A stretch of DNA of 64,000 nucleotides from Lautropia sp. SCN 69-89. Its GTDB lineage: Bacteria; Pseudomonadota; Gammaproteobacteria; Burkholderiales; Burkholderiaceae_E. The notes beneath the pieces were generated by a model. It worked only from the letters and a program-made list of their open reading frames with translations, was not told the DNA's origin and searched no databases. The stretch spans positions 1 to 64,000 of the forward strand of contig MEED01000014.1 in assembly GCA_001724855.1 (NCBI GenBank), written 5' to 3'. Positions 7,205 to 42,396 of the stretch are shown here, one piece after another. Both the position numbers and the translations under genes were made by a program. The stretch's first letter is position 1; each line of letters begins with the position of its first letter.

Positions 7205-7242
7205 AAGGACCGCATCTCGCCCTGAACTGCCGGCGCTTCAGC

Positions 7243-9951
7243 TCACCACGGTGCCGACAGCTTGTCGACAATGTCTCTCCGCGCAAGCACGCGCGAGCAG
7301 AGTTCCCATCGGTCCTGGTCGGGATCGATGGTCTCCTGGTATCGCATTTCGAACACGTTCCGTGTCTGAGCGCGGAGGTGGATGTACTCGTCCATCTTCC
7401 TTTCGAGATCCTCCACGTTCTCGATCCAATCGTCCTCGATGGTGTCAGGCAGACTGCCGAAGATGTCGTAGCGGTCCTTCATACGTCTGGAAATGACCGC
7501 ATAGACCCGCTCGTCCTGCGTCTCGTGATAGACGAGATTGAGCATGTCCACGTTGGCTCGTACCTGGCCGAAGCGTTTGATCCGCCCGAGGCGTTGCTCC
7601 AGCCGCGAAGGATTCCACGGCAGATCGACGTTGATCAGGGTTCCGAGGGTCTGAAGGTTCAAGCCTTCGCATGCGGCGTCGGTCGCCACGAGCAGTCGGA
7701 TCTCCCGTCGCTTCACCGCGGCCTTGATGTCTTCGCGCTCGACGGAGGCGAAGTCGGGACCGCGATAGATGCCGCTCCTGCCAGCACCTGCGTAGATCGC
7801 AACCGGTTCCCCAGGCAGCGCCAAAGCCAGGTCTCCGGCTAGCGAGCGCACGGTGTCGTAGTACTGGCTGAAGACGATGCAGCCGTGCTCGAGCCAGGTC
7901 TTGCCATCGGTCCGGTGCTCCGTCAGAAAGTACTTCACCGCAGATACCTTCGGGTCGCGCGCCTCTGGCCGTGAAAGCTCATCAACAATCGTCCGCAGAT
8001 GCACCGTCTCATTGCTCGACAGCGTGCTCAGCACCTCGTCGATGACCCGCGCCTCTTCTTCCTCCTCCAGCGCCTCGCGCCGAAGCATCTTCTCTGCTGT
8101 GCTCCGCCCGGAGGCGAAGCTCGAACAGATTCGCTGGAGAAGCAGCGTCTTCATGAATCCTGCGGCCCGGCTTCCTTGCTTCTTCAGAGCCGCCGTGAAC
8201 TCTTCGGCCGCTTGATAAGCCAGATCAAACGGGTGGTTAGTGAGTAGCCCGAGGCCTTCGAAGCCGACGCCTCGATAGGCATCGGCCGGCGCGTCCGGCT
8301 CTGGATGAATGGAGACGCCTACGCGCTCCAGCAGTCCCGCGTTCTCGAGCGTCGATCTGCGCCGCAAGACTGTATGACGAACCACCGGGTTATGTTCGCG
8401 CAGGTATCCGGGAGCGAGGGCCTGTGCGATTGCCTGTTGCTCCAGAAAACCGAGCGAACCGAAGCCTCGGTCGGTAAAGAATGCCTGATCGGGCATCCCG
8501 AGCTGAAGCCGGAGTGTCGCGAAGAGAGCATCCTCACTTGCGGGTGGCAGCGGATTGCGCAGCCATTCCCACGCATCACGATCCTCGACAGGGACCTCAG
8601 AACCTTTGACGATGGGCAGCGCACGCTCCCACTCGACCCATCGCCCGAAAAGCTCGCGCCCAAGCACGAAATCGGAACCCGCGTTGAGGATGCGCAGTAG
8701 ATCCCACAGCTCGTAGACCTCAGTCTGGATCGGGGTCGCCGTGCCGAGCAGTAGGTTCTTGGCGCGGTGCCCGATCCGCAGCATGAAGTCGAGCAGATTG
8801 TTTGGCTCCTCCTTTTGCTTTCCCAGCCCGCCACGCCGGCGCGCCTTGTGCGCCTCGTCCAACACCACCGTCCCGAACTTGCGCGCAAGCAGGTATTGGC
8901 GCTCCTCGGAATCGTGGAAGATCAGGCCCGTCGAAACAATCGCGATCTGCGCGGGGCAACGCCCGATGTCTTCCGGGCCTCGGGTTCGGATTTCGTGCCC
9001 ACGCGGGTCAAGCCACACCTTTTTAGCGGATGACCACACCGCACTCGGAATGCCGAGCTTGTCGGCCAGTTCAACCTGCCATTGAAGGGTGAGAGTAGAG
9101 GGGCAAAGAATCAGTACTGGGCCATCGTCCAGCAGGACGGAGATCATGGCGCTGGCGGCGAGCGACAGGGTCTTGCCCACGCCCACTTCATCGGCGAGCA
9201 GTAGACGTGCGCGGCCATAAGTCTCCCGGTGCCGCAGGTACATCGTCACGAATGACCGCTGCCAGGGCTGAAGCTGCTCACCGCCTCGGTAGATCGGGCT
9301 CTCCGCGAGTGCCGCTCCCGGCATCTCTGCGGGCTTCGTGTCGGCAAATCGAATCTCGACCCGCTCAGCAACACGACGCACCTCCTCGATGATTGCGTCG
9401 GGCAGCGGGTAAGCGTCTGCCCAGAGTGCGGCGAACTCCTCCTCGACCCAGGCAACGCCGTCGGGAGAAGGATCCTCCCACAGGATCTCGTAGTTCTGGG
9501 CAAATGCGCTCTTGGTCTCGTTGATGGAACCGAGGAAACAGGTCTTCTGGCCGTCCTCGCCTTCGATTACCCCGGCCTTGCCGTGAATGAAGACACGGTC
9601 CTTCGGGACCACTCGAATCTCGACCCGGCCGCTCGTGAGGAGCTCGTGGAGCCTTCGGTAGCGGTCCCGGTGCAGCAGCGCCTCTACCTCGGACGGCGCT
9701 TCGTTCCAGCGCTCCTTCAGCGAGGTTTCGCGCGCATGGCGAGACACAATGACGTCGGCTGCATCGAGCTCGCTGTTGCAGACGACCTGCACCTTCGGAA
9801 TTGCCGCAATCTCCTCTCCCACCAGCTCGAAGATGGAGCTACGAAAGTACCCAGCGATTCGCCGATATGACTTCGCGCCCTTCAGCCTCTGATTGAGGAA
9901 CGCATGATCGAGACGCTGGCGCCGGGAGGAAAATCGAACGATCGAACTCAT
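7243..9951 (-). CDS. SNF2/DEAH-family helicase with N-terminal phospholipase D-like domain
   Basis: HGKAGVIEGEDGQKTCFLGSINETKSA (PLD HxK-like), LLADEVGVGKTLSLA, VVLDEAHKARR, LLVATDAACEGLNLQ, RLEQRLGRIKRFGQ. Confidence 0.88.
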   Translation of the reverse strand: MSSIVRFSSRRQRLDHAFLNQRLKGAKSYRRIAGYFRSSIFELVGEEIAAIPKVQVVCNSELDAADVIVSRHARETSLKERWNEAPSEVEALLHRDRYRRLHELLTSGRVEIRVVPKDRVFIHGKAGVIEGEDGQKTCFLGSINETKSAFAQNYEILWEDPSPDGVAWVEEEFAALWADAYPLPDAIIEEVRRVAERVEIRFADTKPAEMPGAALAESPIYRGGEQLQPWQRSFVTMYLRHRETYGRARLLLADEVGVGKTLSLAASAMISVLLDDGPVLILCPSTLTLQWQVELADKLGIPSAVWSSAKKVWLDPRGHEIRTRGPEDIGRCPAQIAIVSTGLIFHDSEERQYLLARKFGTVVLDEAHKARRRGGLGKQKEEPNNLLDFMLRIGHRAKNLLLGTATPIQTEVYELWDLLRILNAGSDFVLGRELFGRWVEWERALPIVKGSEVPVEDRDAWEWLRNPLPPASEDALFATLRLQLGMPDQAFFTDRGFGSLGFLEQQAIAQALAPGYLREHNPVVRHTVLRRRSTLENAGLLERVGVSIHPEPDAPADAYRGVGFEGLGLLTNHPFDLAYQAAEEFTAALKKQGSRAAGFMKTLLLQRICSSFASGRSTAEKMLRREALEEEEEARVIDEVLSTLSSNETVHLRTIVDELSRPEARDPKVSAVKYFLTEHRTDGKTWLEHGCIVFSQYYDTVRSLAGDLALALPGEPVAIYAGAGRSGIYRGPDFASVEREDIKAAVKRREIRLLVATDAACEGLNLQTLGTLINVDLPWNPSRLEQRLGRIKRFGQVRANVDMLNLVYHETQDERVYAVISRRMKDRYDIFGSLPDTIEDDWIENVEDLERKMDEYIHLRAQTRNVFEMRYQETIDPDQDRWELCSRVLARRDIVDKLSAPW

Positions 9952-10469
9952 GTCGCTCTGCCGTCCCCCAGGCGCTTAAGGCGAGCCTGCCCCTGAGCCT
10001 GTCTTGCAGAAGCCTGATGCAGCTGTTCGCGTTCTTCGGGGGCGAGCGTCACGGAAACCAGCTCCGCAGCCAAGGAAAGCGCAGCGGGAAACCATCCGTC
10101 ACCCCGCAGGCTTTCAACGAGCTCGTCAGGGACGAGCAAGAGGTAGCGTGCGTTCGCAACGGAAGAGAGTGCGTGTCGCAGTCCGAGTAGCTTGAGGGCG
10201 TCCATCGCAAGCTTGCGTCGATGACCGGCTGTAAGTTGGCCGATCCGCGAATAGGCCTCCACGACGATCGTCTCCCCGCACTCCGTCTTCCACACGGCGT
10301 CTGGGACGGCCTTCTGCCAGATTGGAGGCAGTCCGAGGCCGAGGGCCGCTTCCTGCCACGCGAGGCGCTTCCAGGTGGGGTTCCGCTCCTCCAGTCGCCT
10401 CAGCATCACCGCCTCAACCTCCCGTTGGGCTCTGCTGTCGCTCGGATCGATTTCAGGAGAGGTCGCCAC
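9948..10469 (-). CDS. Hypothetical protein in defence operon
   Basis: 173-aa ORF; 4-nt overlap (9948..9951) with the helicase ORF on the same strand. Confidence 0.65.
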   Translation of the reverse strand: MATSPEIDPSDSRAQREVEAVMLRRLEERNPTWKRLAWQEAALGLGLPPIWQKAVPDAVWKTECGETIVVEAYSRIGQLTAGHRRKLAMDALKLLGLRHALSSVANARYLLLVPDELVESLRGDGWFPAALSLAAELVSVTLAPEEREQLHQASARQAQGQARLKRLGDGRAT

Positions 10470-10488
10470 GGCGCAGGCAAATCGCTGT

Positions 10489-13400
10489 TTAGCCGAGCCG
10501 CTGGTTCTTCACCAGCTCACGCAACACGCGAGCAGCGCTGGCCTCGCCCGGGCGAAGGGCATCGAGCCGCGTCTCCAGATAGTCAGCCAGCTCGACAACC
10601 ATCTCGCGCTGCGTCATGTCGCTGTAGTAGTTGGGAACATTGAGCGTCAGGTGGGCCAACACTTCGGCGCCATCCACGTCCTTCTGAAGCTCCATTAGCC
10701 CGTACAGCACAGCGCGCAGGGTGGACTGGTGTAGCTCGGAGCCCTCGCCCATCTCCGCACGGCCAAACTCAACGGCACTCTTCAGACGGGCGTCGTTGGC
10801 CTTATGGCTCTCGAGCAGCGGCTTGAAATCTCGCACCTTGAAGGCCTTGGCGAAGTTCTGATAGTTATCCAAGGTCTTCGAACCACGCGACTCCATGTCC
10901 AGCATCTTGAGGTAGAACCGTTCCGCACCGGACAGCTTTTCCCAGCGCCCCTTGGTCACGCCCTGAGGGACAAGACAACGGTTGGCGGTGTCGACGGCGA
11001 ACGCAATCAATCCGTCAACGAAAGTGGTCTCGCCCTTCACCCGTGGGCGGATCGCCTCGGCCGTCATGTCTCGCCCGTCAATGACCGCGTACCGTGTCAA
11101 CACCCGAAGCGCCGCGGCATACCCCGCCATCTGGATGTCGGCATCTTCGAACACGTTCTCGTCGCGATACAGGCCTTTGGCCTGCTGGTTAAGCCCCGTG
11201 AGATCCGCCACCTGCTTCTCGACTTCCTCTTGAATCTCCCAGGCCAGATCGTCGCGGGTGGTCTTGTGCCAGCCGTGGCTCTTGCGCAAGACGAGCAGCA
11301 CTGTGCCTTTTACATAGCTACCTTCTCGCAGGGCACTATCAGTCTCGGTGACGACATACCACGCGGCAGTCACGTGCATGCCCGCGGCCCAGACGATATT
11401 GGCCATATCAGCCCAGATCGCGCCTGACTGATGCGTGAACATGACGACCTGGATGCCGTTATCGGGCATGCACTCGGCCATGCGCTTATAGGCGGAGACC
11501 ATCCCACGGCGAAACCCCTCGTCCTCACCTTTGATCGCAAGGGCACGGCGGCTGTCCCAAATCCACTGCGCGAACTCCGCAGGAGGATTCTTGCGCAGCC
11601 AGGCAATGAAGAACTCCAGGATCTCCTCATACTTGACGGCGTCACCATAGGGCGGGTCCGTCACATACAAATCGTTCGTTGTATCGATTTGATCCGCAGA
11701 TCGGCAGTCAATGCGAAGGGCGTCTCGCTCTGGTAAGGGGAAGCTCTTCAACTCCGACTCCACGAGATCGAGCGCGTAAGGCGCTGCGCGGCAGCCGTAG
11801 TTCAGGAGCGTGTTCAGAGCCTGATTGTCGAAGACTTGCTTTACCCCGCCGCTACGACCTTCCCCATCCCCGATGCTCCAACGAGTCAGGCGCGCACTGG
11901 AGTTGAGCATCTGAGCCATTCTCAGCTTTAACTTCGCGTCGCTGTAGCGATTCACGAGCCCAGCGATCAGCAGTTGACGGGAGTTGAAGAGGTGGTGCCA
12001 GTGCGTCCAGCCGCGCTCGCGATACAGCCGCTCGGTTTCGTCACCGGGCTCAATCCGCATGTCTGGAATCCAGCCCTTCGCCTGCCAATCGGCAATGTGC
12101 TTCGCGACGAACGCCTCAACGATGCCCTCCCGGTTGAGATCGTCCGCACTGACGCCCCTGAACTCGTAGTCGTCGCCCTTGCCCTTCTTCTTCGGCCGCA
12201 TCCACTGAATGCAATAGAGCCTCTCCTGAAAGATGTCGTCAGGGCGTGGCTTGAAATCGCTCTTCTCCCACAAACGCAATCGATTGCCGTTCGACCCGTC
12301 TTCCTTTCGGTAGTCGCCGCGCAGAGTCGAAATTTTCGTCCGGTACTCGACACCATCGACCCTGTGAATCAAGTAGGGCTCCTGCCCGCGGCCGTCTGAG
12401 CGTACGGTGCCGTCTTCGGCCAACCGGAAGTCATCAGCATTGACCTGCTGAAGGATCTCAATGTCGTAGCGCTTGTGACGTGCGTCCGGCACCAGCCTCG
12501 CGATCACCTTCTCGCGCTTGCTAATCACCAAGGTTGGCAGAAGCGGCACAAGCCAACCTGTCTGAGGGCAGCGCGCCTCGACGCAGTAAAGAAACACCTT
12601 GGCGCGCCAGCCATGACCGTCGGTCTCCACGCCGAGTCGCTCGATATCGGCCTTCACGCGCAGGACAAGCGCCTGCTGATCACGCGCGAAATGCTCGCGG
12701 CTCTGCGGCGACCCTCCAACAATGTGGAAGGCCCCCCAGGTGAGCATGCACGCAACGGGATTCAAGTCCGATGCGTACACGTCGCATCCCAGCCGAGCGG
12801 CCTCGAATGGGATCTGGCCGGAACCGCAAAAGGTGTCGGCCAGTCGCGGGCGGTGACCGAAGCGCATGATGCCCAATTGCTCTACCAACTCCGAAAACGC
12901 GTTCGCACTCGTACCGAGATGCGCGTTGACCGCGTCCCAGATGTGGTCGTGGACGCTGTCAATGACTTCCTCTGGGCGCCTCGCTTCCTCCGCCCGCTGC
13001 CGGTAAGGCACGCGTGGCAACATCTGGGACTCGAGTTTCCGGCGTTCCCGCTCGGGCAGGTCGGCGCGCCAGGAGACCTTGACGACGTTGTACTCAGGCT
13101 TTGTCCAATCGATCGGCGCCGATCTGGGCAACACGTCTTCTGGCAATACGCTGAAGTAGTCGGTAATCCGCGCGATCGAAAGCCGCTCGAGGATTTCCTT
13201 TGGCCTTGGACGCCGCTTCCATCGGACGACGAAAGACTCGTCGTCCATCGCCATCAGCATTTCGAATATCTCGAGGTCACGCGCCGGTGTGTCGGTGGCG
13301 GGTAGCAAGCAACCAAGCACGCAAGCTTTGTTGAGGATTAGTGGTTTGCGGCCTTTCCAGTAACCGCCTAAAGCCGTTAGGGTCTTGCCGTGCACGGCCA

Positions 13401-13503
13401 TTTGCTCTTTGTAAGCCTCAACCGAGAGCTTTTGCACCGGCAGCAGCCGCTCGATGAGCGCGGGGGCGTCCTTCAGGGACAGCGGAACGACTGGCGTGCT
13501 CAC
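10489..13503 (-). CDS. DUF1156-family adenine-specific DNA methyltransferase
   Basis: ADTFCGSGQIPFEAARLGCDVYASDLNPVA (SAM-binding motif) and YVTDPPYGDAVKYEE (motif IV DPPY). Confidence 0.85.
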   Translation of the reverse strand: MSTPVVPLSLKDAPALIERLLPVQKLSVEAYKEQMAVHGKTLTALGGYWKGRKPLILNKACVLGCLLPATDTPARDLEIFEMLMAMDDESFVVRWKRRPRPKEILERLSIARITDYFSVLPEDVLPRSAPIDWTKPEYNVVKVSWRADLPERERRKLESQMLPRVPYRQRAEEARRPEEVIDSVHDHIWDAVNAHLGTSANAFSELVEQLGIMRFGHRPRLADTFCGSGQIPFEAARLGCDVYASDLNPVACMLTWGAFHIVGGSPQSREHFARDQQALVLRVKADIERLGVETDGHGWRAKVFLYCVEARCPQTGWLVPLLPTLVISKREKVIARLVPDARHKRYDIEILQQVNADDFRLAEDGTVRSDGRGQEPYLIHRVDGVEYRTKISTLRGDYRKEDGSNGNRLRLWEKSDFKPRPDDIFQERLYCIQWMRPKKKGKGDDYEFRGVSADDLNREGIVEAFVAKHIADWQAKGWIPDMRIEPGDETERLYRERGWTHWHHLFNSRQLLIAGLVNRYSDAKLKLRMAQMLNSSARLTRWSIGDGEGRSGGVKQVFDNQALNTLLNYGCRAAPYALDLVESELKSFPLPERDALRIDCRSADQIDTTNDLYVTDPPYGDAVKYEEILEFFIAWLRKNPPAEFAQWIWDSRRALAIKGEDEGFRRGMVSAYKRMAECMPDNGIQVVMFTHQSGAIWADMANIVWAAGMHVTAAWYVVTETDSALREGSYVKGTVLLVLRKSHGWHKTTRDDLAWEIQEEVEKQVADLTGLNQQAKGLYRDENVFEDADIQMAGYAAALRVLTRYAVIDGRDMTAEAIRPRVKGETTFVDGLIAFAVDTANRCLVPQGVTKGRWEKLSGAERFYLKMLDMESRGSKTLDNYQNFAKAFKVRDFKPLLESHKANDARLKSAVEFGRAEMGEGSELHQSTLRAVLYGLMELQKDVDGAEVLAHLTLNVPNYYSDMTQREMVVELADYLETRLDALRPGEASAARVLRELVKNQRLG

Positions 13504-14075
13504 TCCGCCTCCTTGAAGAGCGGCAAGCGAAACAGGTCATCCTCCACGGGGCGCCGACGCCGGCGTCCCGGCACAGGCCTCTCTCCGTCAGACAGAGCGT
13601 GAAACAGCGCTCTACGCCAGCCGCGTTGGGTGTCCTCAGGCAGACCGGCCTCGGCTACTGTCATCGAAAACAGCCACCATCGTTCCTCGGGCCGAAGTGC
13701 GGCCCACTTGCTGCCAATGACGCGAAGCTGGTCGTCGCTCGCCGTCTCCGCTGCCCACGCAAGAACGCACAGCTCCTTTCCGAGTAGGCGGTCCACAAGG
13801 TTCGTCCCGGAATGCCACCGGGCCGTCAGGACCTTCGCGGCCTTAAGGCGATCGTTGAACTCGCGGCGTGCAGTATCAGAGATGCCCGACCAGACGCGGC
13901 GCGGCAACACCACGCGTTCCTCGTCGCGCGGAATCCCGGCCTCATGGCCGCGGTAGCCGTAATCCTCGACGATCACCACGGGCTCGGTCCGGGACGCTGG
14001 AATCTCAACGCGAAAGACATGGGCGCCAAACTTCTCTGGCGCGCCGAAGTCGACCGTGGCGACTGCTTCGCTCAT
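13500..14075 (-). CDS. DUF3780-like protein
   Basis: 191 aa; overlaps methylase and DUF499 genes by 4 nt; position and sequence match DUF3780 in DUF499/DUF1156 operons. Confidence 0.7.
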   Translation of the reverse strand: MSEAVATVDFGAPEKFGAHVFRVEIPASRTEPVVIVEDYGYRGHEAGIPRDEERVVLPRRVWSGISDTARREFNDRLKAAKVLTARWHSGTNLVDRLLGKELCVLAWAAETASDDQLRVIGSKWAALRPEERWWLFSMTVAEAGLPEDTQRGWRRALFHALSDGERPVPGRRRRRPVEDDLFRLPLFKEAE

Positions 14076-17000
14076 TGCTCGACGTCCGCCTGTTCAAGAG
14101 CAATACCGAGCTTGCCTGCAAAATCCTTCAGATCGTGGCCCGAGGCGAAATGCGCCTTTCGGAAGGTCATGGTCACCGGCGTGTCAGGCGCGAACTTCTC
14201 CAAGATCTTGGTCAGCAGCGCCGTGATGAAAGCGGCATCGACACGCACTTCGCCGACCATGATGTTCGCTATCTTGTTGCCCTGGCCCACAGTGAGTGCG
14301 ACGTTCTCGAACTCCACGGTCTTGTCTGCCGCCTGTTTGAGCCCTTCGAAGGTCGTTCCTCGTGAGTCCAGCTTGCGTCCGGTACGCGAGACGAGCCGCG
14401 CTGGCTTGACCTCGTCGATCTGGACGCCCTTCTTGCCACGGGCCGGAAAGCGGAAGTCGGCTTTGGCCTCTAGGCCGTCTGCCGAGCCGAACGCTCGGAG
14501 CAGCACGTCACCATCGCCAATGTCTACTGGCCCGGCGTAGGGCGTTCCCTCGCGCGGCTCACTTCCGTCCAGCGTGTATCGGATATCGCCGCGAGGCGCG
14601 ACAAACAGCTCCACAATGCGCTTGCCTGCCTGCTCGCTGAGGCGATTGCGCAGTACGAGCTGGTTGGACCAGGTGACGGGATCGCCGGTCTCGTACTGTC
14701 CCGAAACATCGCACACTAGGAAGCTCACCCGCAAAGCCGTTGTCGGGTACGGGTTGTCCTTGAGTACGGGACTCGACTCCGACACAGCGCCATCCTCGGC
14801 GTAGTAGATGCGGGGCGCCGGCCCGGCGTTGACCGGATTGACCTTCAACCGAACCCGGCCTTCGTCGCCGAGCTCAGGCTCGGCGACGATCTGTGCCGAT
14901 GTCCGCTTCTTCTTCGGCTTCTTGGTCACGTACCCATTGCCAAGGTCCTCCCAGAGGCCCCGGTTGCACGCGATTGTCTTCAGCGTGTCGAGACCTCGTG
15001 GCGGCAACCAGGGCATGCCCGGCTGCTCCGCGTAGCGGTCGGCTGCGTCCGACCAGCGTGCATCGTCCTGATTCTCTGGCCACAACAGGTCCTGGGCCTT
15101 GTCGCGAATGGCATCGAACTCCTTCTCGACATCGAGATACAGCTTGAGCGGGTTCGACGTGAGCGTTCTCTCGATCTGCTCCTCGCCGTTGAATGGTTTG
15201 GTGGCATCGCGCGTCATGTCTAGTGCTTTGGGTGCGAGTTGCGAGGGCCGACCGGTTCGTTGGATCGGAAACAGCACTTTGTCGAACAGGCTCAGCACAG
15301 TAGCGTTGAAGTCCTGCTCATAGGTCTGCTGTTTGCGTTCAAGATCCTCGCGCTGTGGATGGCCTTTGGGAATGCGACCATCTGCCTTTTGCGATGCGAA
15401 TAGCTGGCGAGCGGCCTTCTCGACACTGCCCATCGCCGTTTTGTCACCTGTGAGGACGCACAGGTTGTTCTTCTGGCTGAGTCCGTCGAAGAATTTCTGG
15501 ACCTCCTCCGGCGGAATCTTCGAGTCCGGGCTTACAACCAGCAATACGCGCCCGCGTCGGACGCGGTCCGCGACGTCCTCAAGCTTTGGCAGCGGAAGTA
15601 CTTCCTCATACACGGTCTTGCGCACGGGTTTGAACATATCCCGGAGACGGTGCCGAATTAGGTCGTCGACCTGGTTCTCCGGTGCGTCGTGGGCCAGGCT
15701 TTGCAGGAGCTTCGTCAGATTCTCCTGACGGTCGAAGTAGTAGCGACCCTCAGGCGTGTGGTGCAGGTACCAAGCGGCCTTCTCCAGCTCCTCGAACGCC
15801 GCCAAGAAATCGGATGGTTCACGCAGCGGTGATACGAGGCACTCCACCATCTCTTCCCGTGTGAGCCCCTTAACTGCGTTCACTGCCGTCGAAAGGCTTG
15901 CGGTAAGCAGCAGGGAGCCAACCTGGGTAGCGGCCTCCTTGCCCGTCTGAAGATCGATGATCTGGGCGTGCGCGGATAGCTGTGCATCCCAAAGATCCTT
16001 GGCGATTACGTCGCGCATGCCGGAGATCTCGGTGAGCTTGTCGCGCACCTCCGCGATGCCGAGGTCAAAGTGCTGGGGACCGATCAAGAAGACGTCATTC
16101 GCGTTCCGGTCCCAGACAGATTTCAGGAGCCGGGAGACCAACTCGATAAGGCCTCGGGTTTGCTTGAACTGCTCGTTTTCTTTGAACAGCGCGACGACGT
16201 TCTTGAGCCTTGGATGAAACGGGTAGGTGGCGACGATCTCGTCGGCGATGGCTTCTGCACCTCGGTTGGCCGTCTTGGACTTGGCGGCTTCCACAAGCTT
16301 GCGGCCAAAGGAGTCGGCGATATCCTCGATCTCGTTCTTGTCGGGCAGTGCCTTGAACAGCCGCTTGCGCAGGATGTCGTAGATCTCGTTCGCCGCAAGA
16401 TCCACGGGAGTGATGTTGCGTTCCTGACGGCCGAGTTCGGCGCGTGCATCCTGTAGGGCTTTGTTGATGAGCCTTCCACCCGTGTCATACGCGGCCGCAA
16501 GATCGGACACCACGATGCACACGTTCTTCTTCTTGCCAGATGCCGTGAGCAAATTTGCGAATGCACGCGTGGCAATGTCGGCGACCGTGCCGTTGCCGAC
16601 CTTCTGGGTGTCGAGGTAGTGGAAGTACGGTGGCATCTCGTCAAGCAGAACCAAAACCGGGTTCTCGCCTTCGAAGAGGTTCAACCAGTCTTTCTCGTCC
16701 GGCGCCTTCGGCCCGCCCGTCCAGAAACTGCGGAACTGGTCCCCCTTCCCGAGCTGATTCGCGATCTCGCCCCAGAAGAAGTGGTCGGGGTTGTTCCGGC
16801 CGTTGAACGCTGCAATGGCCGCGGTCTTGAAGGCATCTGCGTGAGAGATACCTGCGCAGTGCTTTGCTCGAAGTGAGGGGTGCTTCGCGAGGAGGCCGAA
16901 ACCCACGAGCAGGTGGGTTTTCCCACCACCCATCGCCTGCTTCAGATGAAAGACAGCCTGAGAAGAGGCGCCTGCCAGGCGCGCAATGCCTTCCGAGATC

Positions 17001-17155
17001 AGGTCCTTCATGCCCTGGGTGATGTGGGTCTTCTCGAAGAACGCCGATCCGTCACCCTCGGCCGAAATGATCTCGTCAAGCTGTTCTATCTGATCGCTGA
17101 GCTTGATCGAAAGTGCATTTGGCTGCAGCTGGCAGGCGTCGCGGACGGTCTTCAT
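14072..17155 (-). CDS. DUF499-family ATPase
   Basis: Walker A AMGGGKTHLLVGFGLLAKH; 1027 aa; linked to DUF3780/DUF1156. Confidence 0.82.
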   Translation of the reverse strand: MKTVRDACQLQPNALSIKLSDQIEQLDEIISAEGDGSAFFEKTHITQGMKDLISEGIARLAGASSQAVFHLKQAMGGGKTHLLVGFGLLAKHPSLRAKHCAGISHADAFKTAAIAAFNGRNNPDHFFWGEIANQLGKGDQFRSFWTGGPKAPDEKDWLNLFEGENPVLVLLDEMPPYFHYLDTQKVGNGTVADIATRAFANLLTASGKKKNVCIVVSDLAAAYDTGGRLINKALQDARAELGRQERNITPVDLAANEIYDILRKRLFKALPDKNEIEDIADSFGRKLVEAAKSKTANRGAEAIADEIVATYPFHPRLKNVVALFKENEQFKQTRGLIELVSRLLKSVWDRNANDVFLIGPQHFDLGIAEVRDKLTEISGMRDVIAKDLWDAQLSAHAQIIDLQTGKEAATQVGSLLLTASLSTAVNAVKGLTREEMVECLVSPLREPSDFLAAFEELEKAAWYLHHTPEGRYYFDRQENLTKLLQSLAHDAPENQVDDLIRHRLRDMFKPVRKTVYEEVLPLPKLEDVADRVRRGRVLLVVSPDSKIPPEEVQKFFDGLSQKNNLCVLTGDKTAMGSVEKAARQLFASQKADGRIPKGHPQREDLERKQQTYEQDFNATVLSLFDKVLFPIQRTGRPSQLAPKALDMTRDATKPFNGEEQIERTLTSNPLKLYLDVEKEFDAIRDKAQDLLWPENQDDARWSDAADRYAEQPGMPWLPPRGLDTLKTIACNRGLWEDLGNGYVTKKPKKKRTSAQIVAEPELGDEGRVRLKVNPVNAGPAPRIYYAEDGAVSESSPVLKDNPYPTTALRVSFLVCDVSGQYETGDPVTWSNQLVLRNRLSEQAGKRIVELFVAPRGDIRYTLDGSEPREGTPYAGPVDIGDGDVLLRAFGSADGLEAKADFRFPARGKKGVQIDEVKPARLVSRTGRKLDSRGTTFEGLKQAADKTVEFENVALTVGQGNKIANIMVGEVRVDAAFITALLTKILEKFAPDTPVTMTFRKAHFASGHDLKDFAGKLGIALEQADVEQ

Positions 17156-17182
17156 TCGTTATTCCTCAGATTGACCTACTCG

Positions 17183-18088
17183 TTACTCGACACTGGCCGC
17201 CCAACCCGGTGCCAGAGCCGAACTGTCTATCGATGACAGAACCTCGTGGTTTGCGAGTGCGAGCTGGAACGCCGCTGCACTCAGGTTGTGTCCTGGCGAA
17301 CAGTCGACCCCCCATCGGCGCAGCGCGTAACCCGCCACGGCCGCCCGACACGTGACCAGGAGCGCTCCGGAGCGCATCCCGTAGTCAGCCTCGATAGCGC
17401 TCTTGTGCGCGAGCTTAGGGTGTGGAACCAGCTTCAGATCCACGGTGTGGTTCCATTGCTCGTCCGCTTCCGCGCGCTCATGGTCGGCCGGGTCACCCGC
17501 ATCCAACACCGTGGCCTTGGATATCCGGGTGATCACGAAATCGGCGAAGCGCGCGTTTGCACGGTCGTAGGCGCGAACGTGCCAACGCTGGCCGTTGTCG
17601 ACCAACGCGTGGGGCACGATCTGCCGCTCCGTTTTTCCGCTGCTTAACGACACGTACGTCACCTCCAGAACCTGCTGGCGATAGATCGCCCGCGTCACCA
17701 CTGCTAACTCAGCTAGCTTCGGCAGGCTGAGACTTTCGACTGTCTCGGTCGACAGACCCTGCGGATGCGGCAAACCGTCGCCCAGCCCGGACTTCAACCA
17801 GTACAGCACCCGTTCAGGAGTCCGGCTGAATATCAGCCTGAACTTCTCTCCCGGCAGGTACGTCTTCGCCTGAAAGTCGTAGACCAAGTTCTCCGGAGCC
17901 AGCTCTTTGTAGAGCGCCAAGTCTCGACTCGCCTGGATCGACGCCCCAGAAAACCGCTTCGCGACATCCGCCCGCCGCAACTCCCCCAGAAAGAACAGGC
18001 GCGCTTCGATGTACGACAGCCGCTCCACCTGGGAAGGAGGCACGCCCTTGAGCATCGCTCGCACCGAGTTCGACCTAGTCATGAACAC
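17183..18088 (-). CDS. WYL-domain regulator-like protein (start may be an internal ATG near 18055)
   Basis: QQVLEVTYVSLSSGKTERQIVPHALVDNGQRWHVRAYDRANARFADFVITRI = WYL domain. Confidence 0.8.
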   Translation of the reverse strand: MFMTRSNSVRAMLKGVPPSQVERLSYIEARLFFLGELRRADVAKRFSGASIQASRDLALYKELAPENLVYDFQAKTYLPGEKFRLIFSRTPERVLYWLKSGLGDGLPHPQGLSTETVESLSLPKLAELAVVTRAIYRQQVLEVTYVSLSSGKTERQIVPHALVDNGQRWHVRAYDRANARFADFVITRISKATVLDAGDPADHERAEADEQWNHTVDLKLVPHPKLAHKSAIEADYGMRSGALLVTCRAAVAGYALRRWGVDCSPGHNLSAAAFQLALANHEVLSSIDSSALAPGWAASVE

Positions 18089-23460: not shown

Positions 23461-23506
23461 CGCTAAATTCCTTTATTGCGCGAATTTGGCGTTGTATGAT
23501 GTAGCT
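23461..23506 (+). promoter_or_regulatory. Putative abiE operator/promoter
   Basis: Inverted repeat CGCTAAATTC (23461..23470) / GAATTTGGCG (23482..23491), 9/10 match; -10-like TATGAT 23495..23500. Confidence 0.5.
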
Positions 23507-24313
23507 ATGACAACAGAAGGCAACTCCCTACCGGCTTCCCGCGCTCGGCTTGCGGCCGTGCTGCGTGCCACCCGGGAGGTGGTGTCGATTGACGCCGCGG
23601 CCAGGGTGCTTGACATCGACCGGCCGGCTGCGGCCAAGATCCTCTCGCGCTGGCTTAAGCAGGGATGGTTGCGGCGCGTCGGGCGTGGTCTCTATGTCCC
23701 TGTCCCGCTCGCTCTTGCCGGAAGCGAGCAAGTCGTCGAGGACCCCTGGGTCCTGGTCCCGACGCTCTTTGGTCAGTGCTACATCGGCGGCTGGACCGCC
23801 GCTCACCACTGGGACCTGACCGAGCAGCTCTTCAACGAGACACTTGTCTTCACGACGAGGCGCATCAGCGCGAAGCGCGCGACCGCGCAAGGCGTCGCCT
23901 TCCAGCTCCATCACGTTGGGCAGAAGCGCCTCTTCGGTCTTAAGTCCATCTGGCGCGGCTCGATGCGCGTGAACATCTCGGACGCGGCGCGCACGATGAT
24001 CGACATGCTGGCGATGCCGGAGACCGGTGGCGGCATCGATCACATCGCTGACTGCCTGCGCGCGTACGCAAAGTCGCCGACCTATGACGGCGACTTGCTG
24101 GTCCGCTACGGGGAGCAGTTCGGGAACGGCGCGGTCTTCAAGAGGCTCGGCTTCCTGGCCGAGATGCAGCTGCATGACGCGGGCCTTTCAAGCGCCTGCC
24201 GAGCGCGCCTGACGCAGGGGTACGCGCAGTTCGATCCCGCAATGCCCGGCCATCATCTGCTCACGGCATGGCGGCTCTGGGTGCCGGAGCGCTGGAGGAA
24301 GGCAGCATCATGA
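23507..24313 (+). CDS. abiEi: AbiEi-type antitoxin (type IV TA)
   Basis: wHTH N-term VVSIDAAARVLDIDRPAAAKILSRWLKQGWLRRVGRGLYVPVP; IGGWTAAHHWDLTEQLFNETLVFTTRR. Confidence 0.82.
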   Translation: MTTEGNSLPASRARLAAVLRATREVVSIDAAARVLDIDRPAAAKILSRWLKQGWLRRVGRGLYVPVPLALAGSEQVVEDPWVLVPTLFGQCYIGGWTAAHHWDLTEQLFNETLVFTTRRISAKRATAQGVAFQLHHVGQKRLFGLKSIWRGSMRVNISDAARTMIDMLAMPETGGGIDHIADCLRAYAKSPTYDGDLLVRYGEQFGNGAVFKRLGFLAEMQLHDAGLSSACRARLTQGYAQFDPAMPGHHLLTAWRLWVPERWRKAAS

Positions 24314-25743
24314 TCGACAAGCGCGAGGTTCTCGAAGCCGCCTCCGCATTCGGCCTGCTGCCAGGTGTCATTGAGAAGGACTACGTCCTCGGCTGGCTGC
24401 TGGCGGGGATCAACGCCCATTCTGCGCTTGCCGATTCGTGGGTGTTCAAGGGCGGGACCTGCCTCAAGAAGTGCTACTTCGAGACCTATCGATTTTCGGA
24501 GGACCTGGACTTCACGCTACGCGATGAAGCCCAACTTGAAGACGGCTTCTTGCGCCGTGTGATGGGCGAGGTTATCGCCTGGGTGGCGGATGAATCAGGC
24601 CTTGTGCTCCCCGCCGATCAGTTGAGCTTTGATCTCTACTCGAACTCGCGCGGTCGCCTCTCCTGCCAGGGTAAGGTCGGCTATCGGGGGCCGGTGTCGC
24701 CCGCCACGGCGGCTGGCGGATGGCCGAAGATCAAGCTCGATCTCACGGCGGATGAAAGGCTCGTGCTGCCCGCCGTGCGGCGCGAGGTCTTTCATCCCTA
24801 CTCCGACCGTCCGGAGGAGGGGCTGTGGATCAACTGTTATGCCTACGAAGAAGCCTTCGGGGAGAAGCTCCGCGCGCTGGCCGAGCGCACCCGGCCCCGC
24901 GATCTCTATGACGTGGTGAACCTCTACCGCCACGGCGACAGCCGCCCGCCCGCATCGGTGTTGCGCGACGTGCTGACGCAGAAGTGCGAATACAAGGGCA
25001 TTGCGCTGCCGAGCGTTGCAACGCTCGAACCGCATCACGCCGCTCTGGAAGCGATGTGGGAGAGCATGCTTGCTCACCAGCTTCCGGTCCTGCCGCCGGT
25101 CGCGGATTTCTGGGCCGCTCTGCCGGAGATATTCAACTGGCTCATGAGCGGAACCGAAGCGCCGCAGCGCGCGCGCATCGAGCCCGTCGCGTCCGAGACG
25201 ATCATTCGCAGCCGCGTACTGCCGATGTCGGTGCCGCTTCGCGCACGCGCGCCACTGGAAATCATCCGCTTCGCCGCCGCGAATCACCTCTGCGTGGACC
25301 TGACCTACGACGGCAGTGTCCGCCGCATCGAGCCGTACTCGCTGCGGCAGACGGCCGAAGGACACTTTGTGCTGCATGCCATCCGCAGCGATTCGGGCGA
25401 GCATCGTTCGTACCGTGTGGACCGCATGCAGCATGCATCCGTGACCGGGCAGGCGTTTACGCCGCGCTACCTGGTCGAACTGACCTCCGACGGGCCGCTG
25501 GCCGTGGCTCCGGCAGTGACTCGGCCAAGCCTCGCAAGCTCGGCATGGAGCGCTCCGCCCGCAGCCCGTGCCCGCCGCGCCGCCCCTGCCCGCAGCGACG
25601 GCCCGACATACGTCTATCGCTGCACTGTGTGCGGCAAGACGTTCAACAGAAGGACGATGGACGGCACACTGAACCCGCACAAGAACCCGAGGGGCCATGA
25701 CTGCTACGGTACCTACGGGACGTATGTGCGGACGAAGTTCTAG
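24310..25743 (+). CDS. abiEii: AbiEii-type nucleotidyltransferase toxin with C-terminal WYL-like region and Cys/His zinc-finger-like tail
   Basis: VFKGGTCLKKCYFETYRFSEDLDFTL; C-term VDLTYDGSVRRIEPYSLRQTAEGHFVLHAIRSDSGEHRSYRVDRM, YRCTVCGKTFNRR...NPHKNPRGHDC; ATGA overlap with abiEi. Confidence 0.82.
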   Translation: MIDKREVLEAASAFGLLPGVIEKDYVLGWLLAGINAHSALADSWVFKGGTCLKKCYFETYRFSEDLDFTLRDEAQLEDGFLRRVMGEVIAWVADESGLVLPADQLSFDLYSNSRGRLSCQGKVGYRGPVSPATAAGGWPKIKLDLTADERLVLPAVRREVFHPYSDRPEEGLWINCYAYEEAFGEKLRALAERTRPRDLYDVVNLYRHGDSRPPASVLRDVLTQKCEYKGIALPSVATLEPHHAALEAMWESMLAHQLPVLPPVADFWAALPEIFNWLMSGTEAPQRARIEPVASETIIRSRVLPMSVPLRARAPLEIIRFAAANHLCVDLTYDGSVRRIEPYSLRQTAEGHFVLHAIRSDSGEHRSYRVDRMQHASVTGQAFTPRYLVELTSDGPLAVAPAVTRPSLASSAWSAPPAARARRAAPARSDGPTYVYRCTVCGKTFNRRTMDGTLNPHKNPRGHDCYGTYGTYVRTKF

Positions 25744-36460: not shown

Positions 36461-37438
36461 TCATCGTCGCGACTGCTTAACACCAAAGCGCGACAAGTAA
36501 CTGGAAAACCCAAGCGCTGCCCGCATGGACCGCAGCGTGTCCTGCATCTGCTCGCGCGCGGCTTTGGTGCCTCTCGAAAGCGCCCGCAACACTTGTCGAT
36601 TGGTTACTCGCGGCTCTCGGAAGGGAGTCAGGACGCTCACCAGCCCAGACATGAGCACATCACGCTCCTTGTCGCCAAATACCCCACTGCGTCGGACAGC
36701 GCGGGCGGCCGCAGTCAACGAAGCGACCTCAAGCCACATGGCGAAGACGTTGGCGTCGCGTATTGCATCCACGTGACGCCGGACCTCGTCCTCCGAGGCG
36801 TCGATGCTCAGTCGGTTCGCGTAAGTCATCGGCGTCCCATCGGCAGCCGGAAACTGCGCCAGCTTACTGAGCAACAGCTTGGGCGACTTAAAGACGGAGC
36901 GCTTTACCTCTCTATTGAACAGCTCCGCCAACTCCGTCATGTACTGGTGATTTGCGGCCACTTCGCTTCCACCCTGCCAGAAGTCCGCGCCGAGCGCCAA
37001 GGCATAGGCGCTGATTCCGAGATACGGGTAGCTGACCTCGGCCACCGAGGCATTCGCGGCCAACCCCAGCTTCCTTCGTTGAGCCGTCGGCAAGTGTGCC
37101 GCAAACGTGTTGAGGTGACGCTTGGCGACCTCGTCGACGTCGACGGTACGACTGAGCAAGAACGCTATCTCGAACAGCTCCGGTAGCTCCGACGTTAGGA
37201 CGATGCTCGCCTTTCTTGGGTCAACTCCGGCCGCGACGAACTGACCCGCGGCCACCATCGCCTTGTCCGCAAATGTGAGCGTGTCCACGGGCTGCGTTAC
37301 TAGCCCGACCACGTCGTCGACCACGAAGTAACATTGGTACTTCTGTTGCAGGCTCGGCCACTCGCGCATGGTGCTCGCATACACACCGAGAAACCGAGAG
37401 CCGAAAATGCAGTTATGTGCGCTGACGAGCGTCTTCAT
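36461..37438 (-). CDS. Tryptophanyl-tRNA synthetase paralog with degenerate HIGH-like and KMSKS motifs
   Basis: [38 protein letters not shown]...[26 protein letters not shown]; ...[45 protein letters not shown]: aligns by eye over full length with TrpRS. Confidence 0.75.
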   Translation of the reverse strand: [325 protein letters not shown]

Positions 37439-37617
37439 GGCTTCACTCGCGGCCCGTTGCGAAAGATCACAACTTCGTCAAGAGTTGGGCGGCTGATGTC
37501 CACGGGAAGGTTGACCTCGCTCGGCATTGTGACAACGGTAACTCTGCCGGGATCCCTCGGCGACTTATCAAGCCAAGCCTTTGTAAGAGGTTTGACAACC
37601 TGAGGCCTTTTCTTCAT
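37435..37617 (-). CDS. 60-aa peptide, candidate RiPP-like precursor
   Basis: MKKRPQVVKPLTKAWLDKSPRDPGRVTVVTMPSEVNLPVDISRPTLDEVVIFRNGPRVKP; 4-nt ATGA overlaps with genes on both sides. Confidence 0.6.
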   Translation of the reverse strand: MKKRPQVVKPLTKAWLDKSPRDPGRVTVVTMPSEVNLPVDISRPTLDEVVIFRNGPRVKP

Positions 37618-38894
37618 GCATCCTCCTTTGTTGACGACGTTCCGACCAGCTCCTTAATACTGACAATCTTTCCAAACTGAGTCTCGCTTGATGGAATCGA
37701 GCGGATCGTATTGAGCAGCTTGGAGTTCCTCCAAATTGACTCGATCGAAAGCAAAGTTGCGTTCCCCGCCAAGGCCCCATCACCCAGCGCTTCGACCGCC
37801 TTGATGGACGTGTAGCAGTTTCCAAAGGGGTCTACTCGCATAAACCTATCTGCAGCGCGCATTCCGTCTTGAAGCAATAGCCAGTCGGCATCCCGGGCGA
37901 GGCTTGCGCCCTGATCGACGTCAGCACTTGGCAGCTCAAAACAAGCAAGCTCTTCGTCTCCTCCGAAGGAGACGTCGCGCAGCTGCCGCGCTACCGATAG
38001 CAGTTGTTCCTTATTAGGCGCTAGGGCGTTAACCTCCCGCCCCCTCCCGGCTGCGTACAGAGGGGAGGCCACGAAGTACCTAGCACCTAGAGTTCGTGCC
38101 AATCGGGCGGTCTCACCGACAAGGGAATAATTTAGGCTCGTGATCACCATGCTGACCAGAAATGGAATCCTCGCTTCCCTTAGCAGCGGAAGAGCACTAA
38201 TCACCTTCGTGAAATTCCCGTTCCCGCGCAACCGGTCAGCAATTTCCCTGTTCGGCCCGTCCAGCGTGGTATGGATGCAATACAGGTTCCTCAGAGACTT
38301 AAGTCTCTCGCAGTCAACAGGCGCAAACTTCGAGAGGTCACTGCCGATGGTAATAAGTAAGCCAAGTGTGTCGGCGTGACGAACGATCGACCAGAAGTCA
38401 TGCCGCAGCATTGGATCGCCACCAGTGAACCTGACGAATACGACTCCTGCGCCTGCCGCATTGTCCAAAATTGACTTCCAAGCGGACTCGTCGAGCTCCC
38501 CCTCGGTATTGACGGTGGGGCTAGAGTCGTAGGAGCAGTAGGAACATCTTCGGGAGCACCTGCGGGTCAATTCGATTTCGAGCCCGAGGGGCGTATGGAA
38601 GATGCCAGGTTGGAACTCCATCGTATCGAGGTGGAAGGCGGCATCGGCACTGATCCCATTATCAGCAAGGGCCGGTACCAGTATCCCCTTGTTCTGCAAC
38701 ATCTCAACAAGCGCATGGGCATGCACTCGATCCGGGAAATCGAGACTGTCTTCGGCAGCCGGCGCGAAGAACTGCTCGATGATGTACGCAGCGGAGCGGT
38801 TGAAGAAGCGGGTCGACTGGTCAGCAAGGTTCACGACCACACAGCCAAACCATTCCCTGCGATAGCGGATCGTTGACGCTAGTACGAGTTCCAA
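37614..38894 (-). CDS. Radical SAM protein with N-terminal PqqD-like RRE and SPASM/twitch-like C-terminus; probable TTG start
   Basis: CSRRCSYC (CX3CX2C), FTGGDPML, DPFGNCYTSIKA...SIESIWRNSKLL; N-term RYRREWFGCVVVNLADQSTRFFNRSAAYIIEQF; AGGAGG 7 nt upstream of TTG at 38894. Confidence 0.85.
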   Translation of the reverse strand: MELVLASTIRYRREWFGCVVVNLADQSTRFFNRSAAYIIEQFFAPAAEDSLDFPDRVHAHALVEMLQNKGILVPALADNGISADAAFHLDTMEFQPGIFHTPLGLEIELTRRCSRRCSYCSYDSSPTVNTEGELDESAWKSILDNAAGAGVVFVRFTGGDPMLRHDFWSIVRHADTLGLLITIGSDLSKFAPVDCERLKSLRNLYCIHTTLDGPNREIADRLRGNGNFTKVISALPLLREARIPFLVSMVITSLNYSLVGETARLARTLGARYFVASPLYAAGRGREVNALAPNKEQLLSVARQLRDVSFGGDEELACFELPSADVDQGASLARDADWLLLQDGMRAADRFMRVDPFGNCYTSIKAVEALGDGALAGNATLLSIESIWRNSKLLNTIRSIPSSETQFGKIVSIKELVGTSSTKEDA

Positions 38895-39258
38895 CAAACC
38901 ACCTCCTGGTTGGTCCTGGATCCTGAGGTATGGGCAGAAAGGTCCGACTAGTTCCTTCCAGAGCGTGGAACAGATGCGTATCCAACAACCCGCCCCCCCC
39001 AACCGCCGCAGGGCGAGCGGGACCCAGCCGGGGAGCGACCCTATCGCAATGTACGCACTTGGGCGCAGTGGTTCATGGTAACCGCTCACTGAATTTCGAG
39101 ACAAGAGAGAGCGGCACACATCAGTGCCAGGCCGCGCGGCAACCTGCAATCTCCGCCTTACAGGGAGTCACATCGGAAGGCGCAGCGTCGAAGCAGCGCA
39201 AGCGCCATGCGTCGATGCGGCGGCACTCGCTAGATCGCACGCGCGCCTACAACGCAGC

Positions 39259-40518
39259 TCATAGTGGCGCCGCCGTCGTCGCCACCTTCATCGTCGGCGG
39301 CAGCAGCATGGGCGTATGCGACTTCCCTGCCACCCAGGCGTCGATCATGTCCGCCCACTCCTGCAGCATGTGACGCCGCTGCTCTGCGTACTCCGCCTTG
39401 TTGTAGACGCCGCGGGATGAGCGCCCGTCTTCGTGGGCCAGGCACTTCTCGATCCAGTCGCTGTTGAAGCCGAGCTCGTTCAGGATGGTCGAGCCGGTGC
39501 GGCGCAGGTCGTGCACCGTGAACGGTTCGAGCGGCAGCTTCGCTTCCTTGGCTCGCTCCACGACGATCTGGGTGACCCGGTTCAGGGTCGCCTTTGACAT
39601 GCAGCGGTCGGCGTCATAGCGCGAGGGCAGCAGGAACTTGGACCCGCTGGCACAGGTGCGCAGCGCCACCATGATGTCGAGTGCCTGCTGCGACAGATAC
39701 ACGTTGTGGGGCTTGCCGGCCTTCATGCGGCCCTTCGGGATCGTCCAGACGGCGTTCTCGAAGTCGACCTCGTCCCAGGTGGCCTCGATCAGTTCGCTCT
39801 TGCGCACGAGCGTCAGCAGGATCAGGCGCAGCGCCAGGCGGATGGTCGGCAGGGTTGCGGTGGCGTCCAGCACCCGGTGCATGACGCGTATCTCGGACGG
39901 CGACAGCGCGCGGTCCTTGGGCACGAAGGTGGCGATCGACGAGGGGCCGACTTCGTCCGCCGGGTTCGGCGCCTTCTCGCCGTGCAGGGCTGCGAAGCCG
40001 AAGACCTGCTTGACGATGTCGCGCACGTGCACGGCGGTGGCCGGCGCGCCGCGCGCCTTGACCTTGGCGCAAAGGTTGCGCAGGTCTTCCGCCCCGATCT
40101 CGGCCATCAGCCGATTGCGGAACACCGGCAGGATGTCCCGGTCGATGATGCTCTTGCGCATCGACTTCGTGCTCTCGGCCATCCTGGCTTCTTCCAGCCA
40201 GCGCTTCGTGAACTCCTCGAAGGTCTTGGCCTCGGCCGCCCTGCGCTTTTCGCGCTGCTTCTCCTGGGAGGGAGACCGGCCTTCGGCGATCGCCTTGCGC
40301 GCTTCCACGCAGCGCTCGCGCGCCATCAGCAGCGAGATCCCGTCCTTGGACCCGTAGCGGCCGATCGTGAGCGTCTCCCGCCGGCCGTTGAGCCGGTAGT
40401 CGAGACGGAAAGTGATCGTGCCCCTGGGGGAGACGGTCACGTACATCCCGTCCCGATCGGCGATCTTGTAGGTGGTGGCCTGGGGCTTGATGCCCCTGAG
40501 CGTGCCATCGGACAGCAT
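39259..40518 (-). CDS. int: Tyrosine-type site-specific integrase (P4-like, DUF4102 N-terminus)
   Basis: MLSDGTLRGIKPQATTYKIADRDGMYVTVSPRGTITFRLDYRLNGRRETLTIGRYG; LILLTLVRKSELIEATWDEVDF; HDLRRTGSTILNELGF; VYNKAEY. Confidence 0.95.
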   Translation of the reverse strand: MLSDGTLRGIKPQATTYKIADRDGMYVTVSPRGTITFRLDYRLNGRRETLTIGRYGSKDGISLLMARERCVEARKAIAEGRSPSQEKQREKRRAAEAKTFEEFTKRWLEEARMAESTKSMRKSIIDRDILPVFRNRLMAEIGAEDLRNLCAKVKARGAPATAVHVRDIVKQVFGFAALHGEKAPNPADEVGPSSIATFVPKDRALSPSEIRVMHRVLDATATLPTIRLALRLILLTLVRKSELIEATWDEVDFENAVWTIPKGRMKAGKPHNVYLSQQALDIMVALRTCASGSKFLLPSRYDADRCMSKATLNRVTQIVVERAKEAKLPLEPFTVHDLRRTGSTILNELGFNSDWIEKCLAHEDGRSSRGVYNKAEYAEQRRHMLQEWADMIDAWVAGKSHTPMLLPPTMKVATTAAPL

Positions 40519-40542
40519 CGGCAGTCCCTCCTCTCGGAGGAA

Positions 40543-40706
40543 TTTTACCGTCACGCCAAAACGGTGGCTACAACTCCAGTAAGTTTTTGATTTCTCAGGA
40601 GTTGATGCCACTTTTTTTACCGTCACCCCTCGCTTTGGCGTGACGGTAAAAAATTTGGAGGCATCCGGTCGAAGATTTCTACCGTCAGATTTACCGTCAG
40701 ATCGAA
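40543..40706. repeat. Cluster of five TACCGTCA motifs (direct and inverted) upstream of int
   Basis: TACCGTCA at 40546, 40618, 40680 and 40692; inverse TGACGGTA at 40641; includes TTTTACCGTCACGCCAAAA vs TTTGGCGTGACGGTAAAA. Confidence 0.85.
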
Positions 40707-40815: not shown

Positions 40816-42396
40816 TCATTCCCACTCGATCGTCGCCGGCGGTTTGCCCGAGATGTCGTAGACAACGCGGTTGATGCCGCGCACCTCGTTGATGATGCGA
40901 TTCGACACCCGCCCGAGCAGCTCGTGCGGCAGGTGCGCCCAGTGCGCGGTCATGAAGTCCTGCGTCTGCACCGCGCGCAGCGCGACCACGTACTCGTAGG
41001 TGCGGCCGTCGCCCATCACGCCCACCGACTTTAGCGGCAGGAACACCGCGAAGGCCTGCGAGGTGATGTCGTACCAGCTGCGCCCGTCGGGCCCGACAGT
41101 GTTGCGCAGTTCCTCGATGAAGATCGCATCGGCGCGGCGCAGCAGGTCGGCGTGCTCGCGACGCACCTCGCCGAGGATGCGCACGCCCAGCCCCGGCCCC
41201 GGGAACGGGTGACGGTAGACCATCTCGCGCGGCAACCCGAGCGCCACGCCCAGTTCGCGCACCTCGTCCTTGAAGAGATCGCGCAGCGGTTCGAGCAGCT
41301 TCAGGTGCAGCGTCTCGGGCAGCCCGCCCACGTTGTGGTGCGACTTGATCTTCGCCGCCTTGCCCGACTTGGCACCGGCCGACTCGATCACGTCGGGGTA
41401 GATCGTGCCCTGGGCAAGCCACTTCGCGTTCGCGAGCTTCGCCGCCTCTTCCTGGAACACGTGGACGAACTCGCGGCCGATGACGCGGCGCTTCTCCTCG
41501 GGGTCGGCCACACCGGCCAGCTGCCCCATGAAGCGCCCGCTCGCGTCGACGTGCACGAGCGTCATGCCCATGTGCCGCTGGAAGGTGTCGACCACCTGCG
41601 CGCCCTCGTTCAGGCGTAGCAAGCCGGTGTCGACGAACACGCAGGTGAGCTGCTCGCCGATCGCGCGATGGATCAGCGCCGCGGCCACGCTGGAATCGAC
41701 GCCGCCCGACAGGCCGAGGATGACCTCCTCGGCGCCCACCTGCCTGCGGATCTGCTCGACTGCCTCGGCGATGTGGTCGCGCATCACCCAGTCGGGGCGA
41801 CAGCCGCAGATGTCGAGCACGAAGCGCTGCAGGATCTTCGCGCCCTGCGGCGTGTGCGTGACCTCGGGATGGAACTGCACCGCGTAGAAACGGCGCGACT
41901 CGTCGGCCATGCCGGCGATCGGGCAGGCGTCGGTGGAGGCCATCAGCCGGAAACCGGCAGGCATCTCGACGACCTTGTCGCCGTGGCTCATCCAGACCTT
42001 CAGCAGCCCGTGGCCTTCGGCGTTGCGCGCATCCTCGATGCCCTCGAGCAGCCGCGTGTGGCCGCGCGCGCGCACCTCGGCATAGCCGAACTCGCGTCGC
42101 GCGCCCGGCTCGACGCGCCCTCCCAGTTGCTGGGCCATCGTCTGCATGCCGTAGCAGATGCCGAGCACCGGCACGCCGAGCGCGAACACCGCCTCGGGAG
42201 CACGATCGGTGGATTCCTCGTGCGCCGACATCGGGCTGCCCGAGAGGATGATGCCCTTGGGCGCGAAGCTGCGCACGAACGACTCGTCGACGTCGCAGGG
42301 GTGGATCTCGCAGTAGACGTGCGCCTCGCGCACGCGCCGTGCGATCAGCTGCGTGACCTGCGACCCGAAGTCGAGGATCAGGATCCTGTCGTGCAT
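40816..42396 (-). CDS. guaA: GMP synthase (glutamine-hydrolysing)
   Basis: [49 protein letters not shown]; ...[11 protein letters not shown]-terminus. Confidence 0.98.

Follow-up and report, generated by a model that had tools for sequence, protein, structure and literature searches.

Cyclodipeptide synthases (CDPSs) have a class Ic synthetase fold that lacks the ATP motifs and is used outside of charging. Together with AcmF and SbzA, they are synthetase-fold enzymes that have been recruited into natural-product biosynthesis; AcmF is AlaRS-like, SbzA is IleRS-like, and these two act on small molecules (PMC12945691). Such synthetase-like proteins outside translation have repeatedly revealed new chemistry. 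RiPP operons additionally harbor a tRNA-dependent peptide tailoring system with a LanB-like fold, which belongs to the same role class as that proposed below for a TrpRS-like protein but is unrelated to it in fold. SuiB/StrB, WgkB, and SkfB are radical SAM (rSAM) RiPP maturases, and Lys-Trp links are made by SuiB and WgkB.

The three-gene operon

The locus that is compared here with these systems lies in a window of 64,000 nucleotides, the whole stretch of DNA that was analyzed. It consists of three genes on the minus strand in the order rSAM gene, small ORF, and TrpRS-like gene:

37614..38897, minus strand: radical SAM peptide maturase of about 427 aa with a putative N-terminal SuiB-like RRE domain, CxxxCxxC, and a degenerate SPASM (Pfam, NCBIfam, and profile searches)
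37622..37629, minus strand: strong, consensus Shine-Dalgarno site AAAGGAGG, 4 nt 5′ of the small ORF start (sequence)
37435..37617, minus strand: small ORF of 60 aa (MKKRPQVVKPLTKAWLDKSPRDPGRVTVVTMPSEVNLPVDISRPTLDEVVIFRNGPRVKP), candidate RiPP precursor (ORF read directly from the sequence)
36461..37438, minus strand: TrpRS-like pseudo-synthetase gene, 325 aa, 3′-most gene of the three-gene operon

Both junctions of the operon are ATGA overlaps, one between the small ORF start and the rSAM stop and one between the small ORF stop and the TrpRS-like start. The rSAM probably starts at a TTG at 38897 or 38894, downstream of AGGAGG, in an open frame that extends to 39149. The original prediction described the TrpRS-like gene only and left the operon and its mobile-island context unremarked. 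The locus is best explained as an operon for RiPP-like peptide modification that includes a repurposed, nonadenylating TrpRS fold and lies on a mobile island, a reading that has about an even chance of being right. A TrpRS stripped of its catalytic signatures and coupled in translation to a small peptide and an rSAM enzyme would be a compact three-gene system for tRNA-dependent or scaffold-type tailoring, and such an arrangement suggests that an enzyme of translation was co-opted to produce or handle a modified peptide.

Homology, fold, and motif losses of the TrpRS-like protein

The TrpRS-like ORF runs from an ATG start to a TGA stop without internal stops, and its codon-position GC (0.62/0.45/0.74) marks it as a real coding gene. 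The protein matches the Pfam family tRNA-synt_1b (TrpRS/TyrRS catalytic family, E = 2e-10) and TrpRS chains in a PDB sequence search (best E = 3e-11). The NCBIfam TrpRS models reach at most 64 bits (E = 9e-18), which is below all of the curated trpS cut-offs (177-597 bits). The kinship with TrpRS is well above chance and extends nearly end to end, and the likeness originally seen by eye across most of the protein is borne out by these matches and by the alignments. Canonical bacterial TrpRS (LHLGH subgroup, NCBIfam PRK12283/trpS) is homologous nearly throughout, has the same predicted fold, and shares the C-terminal domain.

The AlphaFold2 model of the TrpRS-like protein has a mean pLDDT of 82.5 and a pTM of 0.79. 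In Foldseek it matches TrpRS crystal structures with a TM of 0.80 and an E of about 1e-15, and the best 50 matches are TrpRS structures throughout, with one entry titled as a designed esterase. Model confidence is lowest at residues 127-129 and at residues 205-207, where the KMSKS loop used to be. Since the MSA consisted of 12 canonical TrpRSs, a choice that favors the TrpRS fold, the model supports this fold without being independent proof of it. The model and its Foldseek matches support the earlier claim that the TrpRS fold is retained, and they supply the AlphaFold comparison that had been suggested along with it.

The TrpRS-like protein differs from canonical TrpRS by the loss of HIGH, KMSKS, the ATP loop, and the Trp-recognition residues. 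Alignments with six canonical TrpRSs and, separately, with twelve viral TrpRSs place the altered motifs as follows:

37382..37396, minus strand: HIGH-equivalent R15-F-L-G-V19 (canonical LHLGH/TIGN)
36998..37030, minus strand: Trp-pocket segment, residues Y137-147, in which QAADIL has become ISAYAL and the indole-binding Asp has become Tyr145
36959..36970, minus strand: GSEV (157-160) where canonical TrpRS has GEDQ, with Gln changed to Val160
36812..36832, minus strand: P203-MTYAN-R209 at the KMSKSxxN site, aligned as PM--TYAN with two residues deleted

The ATP loop, G(I/D)(Q/R)P(S/T)G in canonical TrpRS, is unrecognizable as well. A deletion of this loop, as it appears in the alignment with the six canonical sequences, was rejected as an alignment choice, because the loop is replaced and not deleted in the viral alignment. 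YP, DP, DG, FN, and the C-terminal R...G..AR...T pattern are retained. HIGH-like and KMSKS motifs are present in all 37 other TrpRS homologs retrieved, and the motif loss is therefore specific to the TrpRS-like protein. The original readings of FLGV for HIGH/TIGN, PMTYANR for KMSKS, a Trp-binding segment without its Asp, and GSEV for GEDQ agree with these alignments. The accompanying claim that adenylation chemistry is probably gone gains strength from the contrast to the intact homologs; the loss of activity itself is deduced from the motifs, and the protein very probably does not activate Trp.

That the protein is a highly divergent yet active synthetase, or that the gene is a decaying pseudogene, is highly improbable. 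A few class I synthetases cope with altered signature motifs, according to a title in the reference list of PMC12945691. The branch of the TrpRS-like protein in a maximum-likelihood tree is extremely long (7.6 changes per column, where no canonical sequence exceeds 2.2), as relaxed selection might produce. The two ATP motifs and the two Trp-pocket residues have changed together, however, and the gene combines a reading frame free of frameshifts and stops with coding-like codon-position GC and tight coupling to the upstream gene. The tree had been suggested earlier as a way to recognize a separate clade, and with so long a branch, the phylogenetic placement is uninterpretable.

The charge of the TrpRS-like protein has also shifted. 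Its pI is 9.6, against a maximum of 7.4 among 37 canonical TrpRSs including the host’s own, and its C-terminal part has a pI of 11.3, against a maximum of 9.5 in the same set. The strongly basic C-terminal domain would be compatible with RNA binding.

The CDPSs, which had been cited as a precedent, hold as an analogy only. Their family profile gives no Pfam match to the TrpRS-like protein at E ≤ 10, and membership in this family was rejected on that ground. Unlike the CDPSs, the TrpRS-like protein has retained a complete C-terminal domain, and its gene shares an operon with that of an rSAM maturase. The recruitment of a synthetase fold to biosynthesis would be alike in AcmF and SbzA, whereas the fold class, TrpRS-like here, differs.

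The TrpRS-like gene stands last in a putative biosynthetic operon. Antibiotics are known that target TrpRS, indolmycin and chuangxinmycin among them, and PDB entries with these two appear among the Foldseek fold matches. A dead TrpRS copy could be an immunity decoy that sequesters an operon product aimed at TrpRS or tRNA-Trp and protects the producer. Such a decoy would be expected to retain the inhibitor-binding Trp pocket, however, and the pocket Asp and Gln are lost here. Known self-resistance, moreover, usually proceeds via a functional resistant synthetase. The decoy role is quite improbable.

The radical SAM protein, the small ORF, and the proposed mechanism

The upstream gene of the operon gives a Pfam radical SAM match of 1e-18. 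A profile of the rSAM and its relatives finds the solved structures of SkfB (5e-24), PqqE (6e-17), and SuiB (6e-8), and the top NCBIfam models (mycofactocin MftC, PqqE, heme-maturation, WgkB-type) describe peptide-maturase or cofactor-peptide rSAMs. The alignment with SuiB begins inside the N-terminal leader-binding domain (RRE) of the latter (RRERFGGIL versus RLEKFGGIL). The operon rSAM is homologous to SuiB/StrB, WgkB, and SkfB and has a putative SuiB-like RRE at its N terminus, with the differences being its degenerate SPASM and a candidate partner peptide that is unrelated to known precursors.

The 60-aa peptide has a pI of 10.6 and contains W15 as its sole Trp, with Lys at K13 and K18. 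It is a reasonably likely substrate of the rSAM maturase, and a Lys-Trp link is predicted at W15, with both Lys nearby.

In the first step of the proposed mechanism, the rSAM would bind the leader of the peptide via its SuiB-like N-terminal domain, as domain homology suggests. Subsequently, it would introduce a radical-based cross-link or another modification, for which W15 is the candidate site. In the second step, for which the case is weaker, the TrpRS-derived protein, with its Rossmann/C-terminal-domain architecture kept and its ATP and Trp activation lost, would work on or with the peptide rather than charge tRNA. The case for its participation in peptide tailoring is evenly balanced. Because the C-terminal domain became strongly basic, the likeliest form of this step would be a tRNA-binding, aminoacyl-tRNA-dependent tailoring or accessory protein. 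As its cosubstrate, (aminoacyl-)tRNA is the leading guess, albeit a tentative one, and it is doubtful that a nonadenylating TrpRS derivative tailors an rSAM-modified ribosomal peptide via aminoacyl-tRNA or tRNA-Trp. If true, tRNA-dependent peptide tailoring would have arisen independently once more, in addition to its origins in CDPSs and PEARLs.

Alternatively, the TrpRS fold may act by binding only and make no use of tRNA, serving the peptide or the rSAM as a chaperone or scaffold. This role would fit a seemingly intact fold from which the catalytic and Trp-binding residues are lost, and RiPP systems commonly include partner proteins and RRE-like accessory proteins. The high pI of the C-terminal domain, however, suggests nucleic acid or an acidic partner, and the peptide itself is basic, which leaves the binding-only role rather unlikely.

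The RiPP-like operon stays the preferred reading of the locus, and several observations count against it. The RRE region of the rSAM is matched neither by Pfam nor by the N-terminal profile alone and is modeled at low confidence. No transporter or peptidase gene is present in the three-gene operon. For the small ORF, no homolog was detected in homology searches, rSAM-relative loci included.

The loci of the rSAM relatives also weigh against this reading. A genome scan and a plasmid search gave eight relatives with about 31-37% identity, namely from Enhygromyxa salina (37%), six Thermus records (T. thermophilus and five others), and Meiothermus (about 32% for Thermus/Meiothermus). A TrpRS-like or small-ORF neighbor is absent at all eight loci, and a conserved rSAM/TrpRS-like operon was rejected because of the missing TrpRS-like partner. 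The Enhygromyxa TrpRS genes are located elsewhere than the rSAM and are canonical. Orthologs of the TrpRS-like protein were found neither in 399 phylum, 400 order, and 339 class genomes nor in plasmids, phages, viral contigs, or one scan of genome contigs. The matches from these searches that were inspected are canonical TrpRSs, and the protein is known from one genome only. A literature search found no description of a TrpRS homolog within a radical-SAM RiPP operon.

Several of the retrieved loci have features of their own. The rSAM relative of Enhygromyxa salina (L022, 7986-9578) is extended at its C terminus by about 110 additional aa; a resemblance of the small ORF to this extension (PSEVNL/PTEISL by eye) was rejected as not significant (shuffle p = 0.17). 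On two T. thermophilus plasmids (L018, 7893-10557; L070, 5893-8557), an RRE-type rSAM gene overlaps the gene for an MFS transporter in the vicinity of transposases, which is possibly an uncharacterized RiPP-like locus. On a Rhizobium leguminosarum plasmid (L075, 2161-5963), trpS lies beside genes for a coproporphyrinogen-III-oxidase-family protein and an FAD oxidoreductase and is IS6-flanked; this locus may be a biosynthetic or self-resistance cluster.

The mobile island and its neighbors

The best explanation for the position of the three-gene operon is that it is cargo of an integrated mobile island, which borders on the chromosome as follows:

39259..40626, minus strand: tyrosine integrase of the island (Pfam, NCBIfam)
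40816..42396, minus strand: guaA (GMP synthase), chromosomal neighbor and probable integration target

GuaA shares 75% identity with a Comamonas protein, which would suit a Burkholderiales-like host. The island additionally carries a gene that is ParA-like by sequence resemblance and an AcaB-type regulator. GC3 is 0.59-0.74 in the three operon genes and 0.88-0.93 in the integrase, parA, and guaA, so that even within its island the operon appears foreign.

An anti-phage defense module would combine the rSAM, the small protein, and the pseudo-TrpRS in a joint response to infection, for example by affecting tRNA-Trp or by making an antiviral molecule. A cluster of TmtA, PLD-helicase, DUF1156 methyltransferase, and DUF499 genes shares the window with the operon, as does AbiE, and in PADLOC the rSAM is weakly similar to prokaryotic viperins (2.5e-9). 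This weak similarity is at the level of the rSAM superfamily only, and an assignment as viperin or as a known defense system was rejected; in sequence, the rSAM resembles RRE-containing peptide maturases much more closely. Neither the TrpRS-like protein nor the small ORF has a PADLOC match, the nearest identified defense genes (AbiE) lie about 11 kb from the operon, and the codon GC of the operon is unlike that of the other island genes tested. A defense role is improbable, and the RiPP-like operon is preferred.

Repeats of TTTTACCGTCAC(G/C)CC occur in direct and inverted orientation at 40543-40658, around the integrase start and between the integrase and guaA, and this zone is a possible attachment or integrase-binding region. 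The defense cluster of the window extends over 1550-18088 and encodes a TmtA-like protein of 1884 aa, a PLD helicase, a DUF1156 methyltransferase, a DUF499 ATPase, and a WYL regulator; the helicase, the methyltransferase, and the DUF499 protein match PADLOC models near full length. An AbiEi/AbiEii pair lies at 23486-25743, and its AbiEii-type protein of 491 aa has an additional Pfam WYL match.
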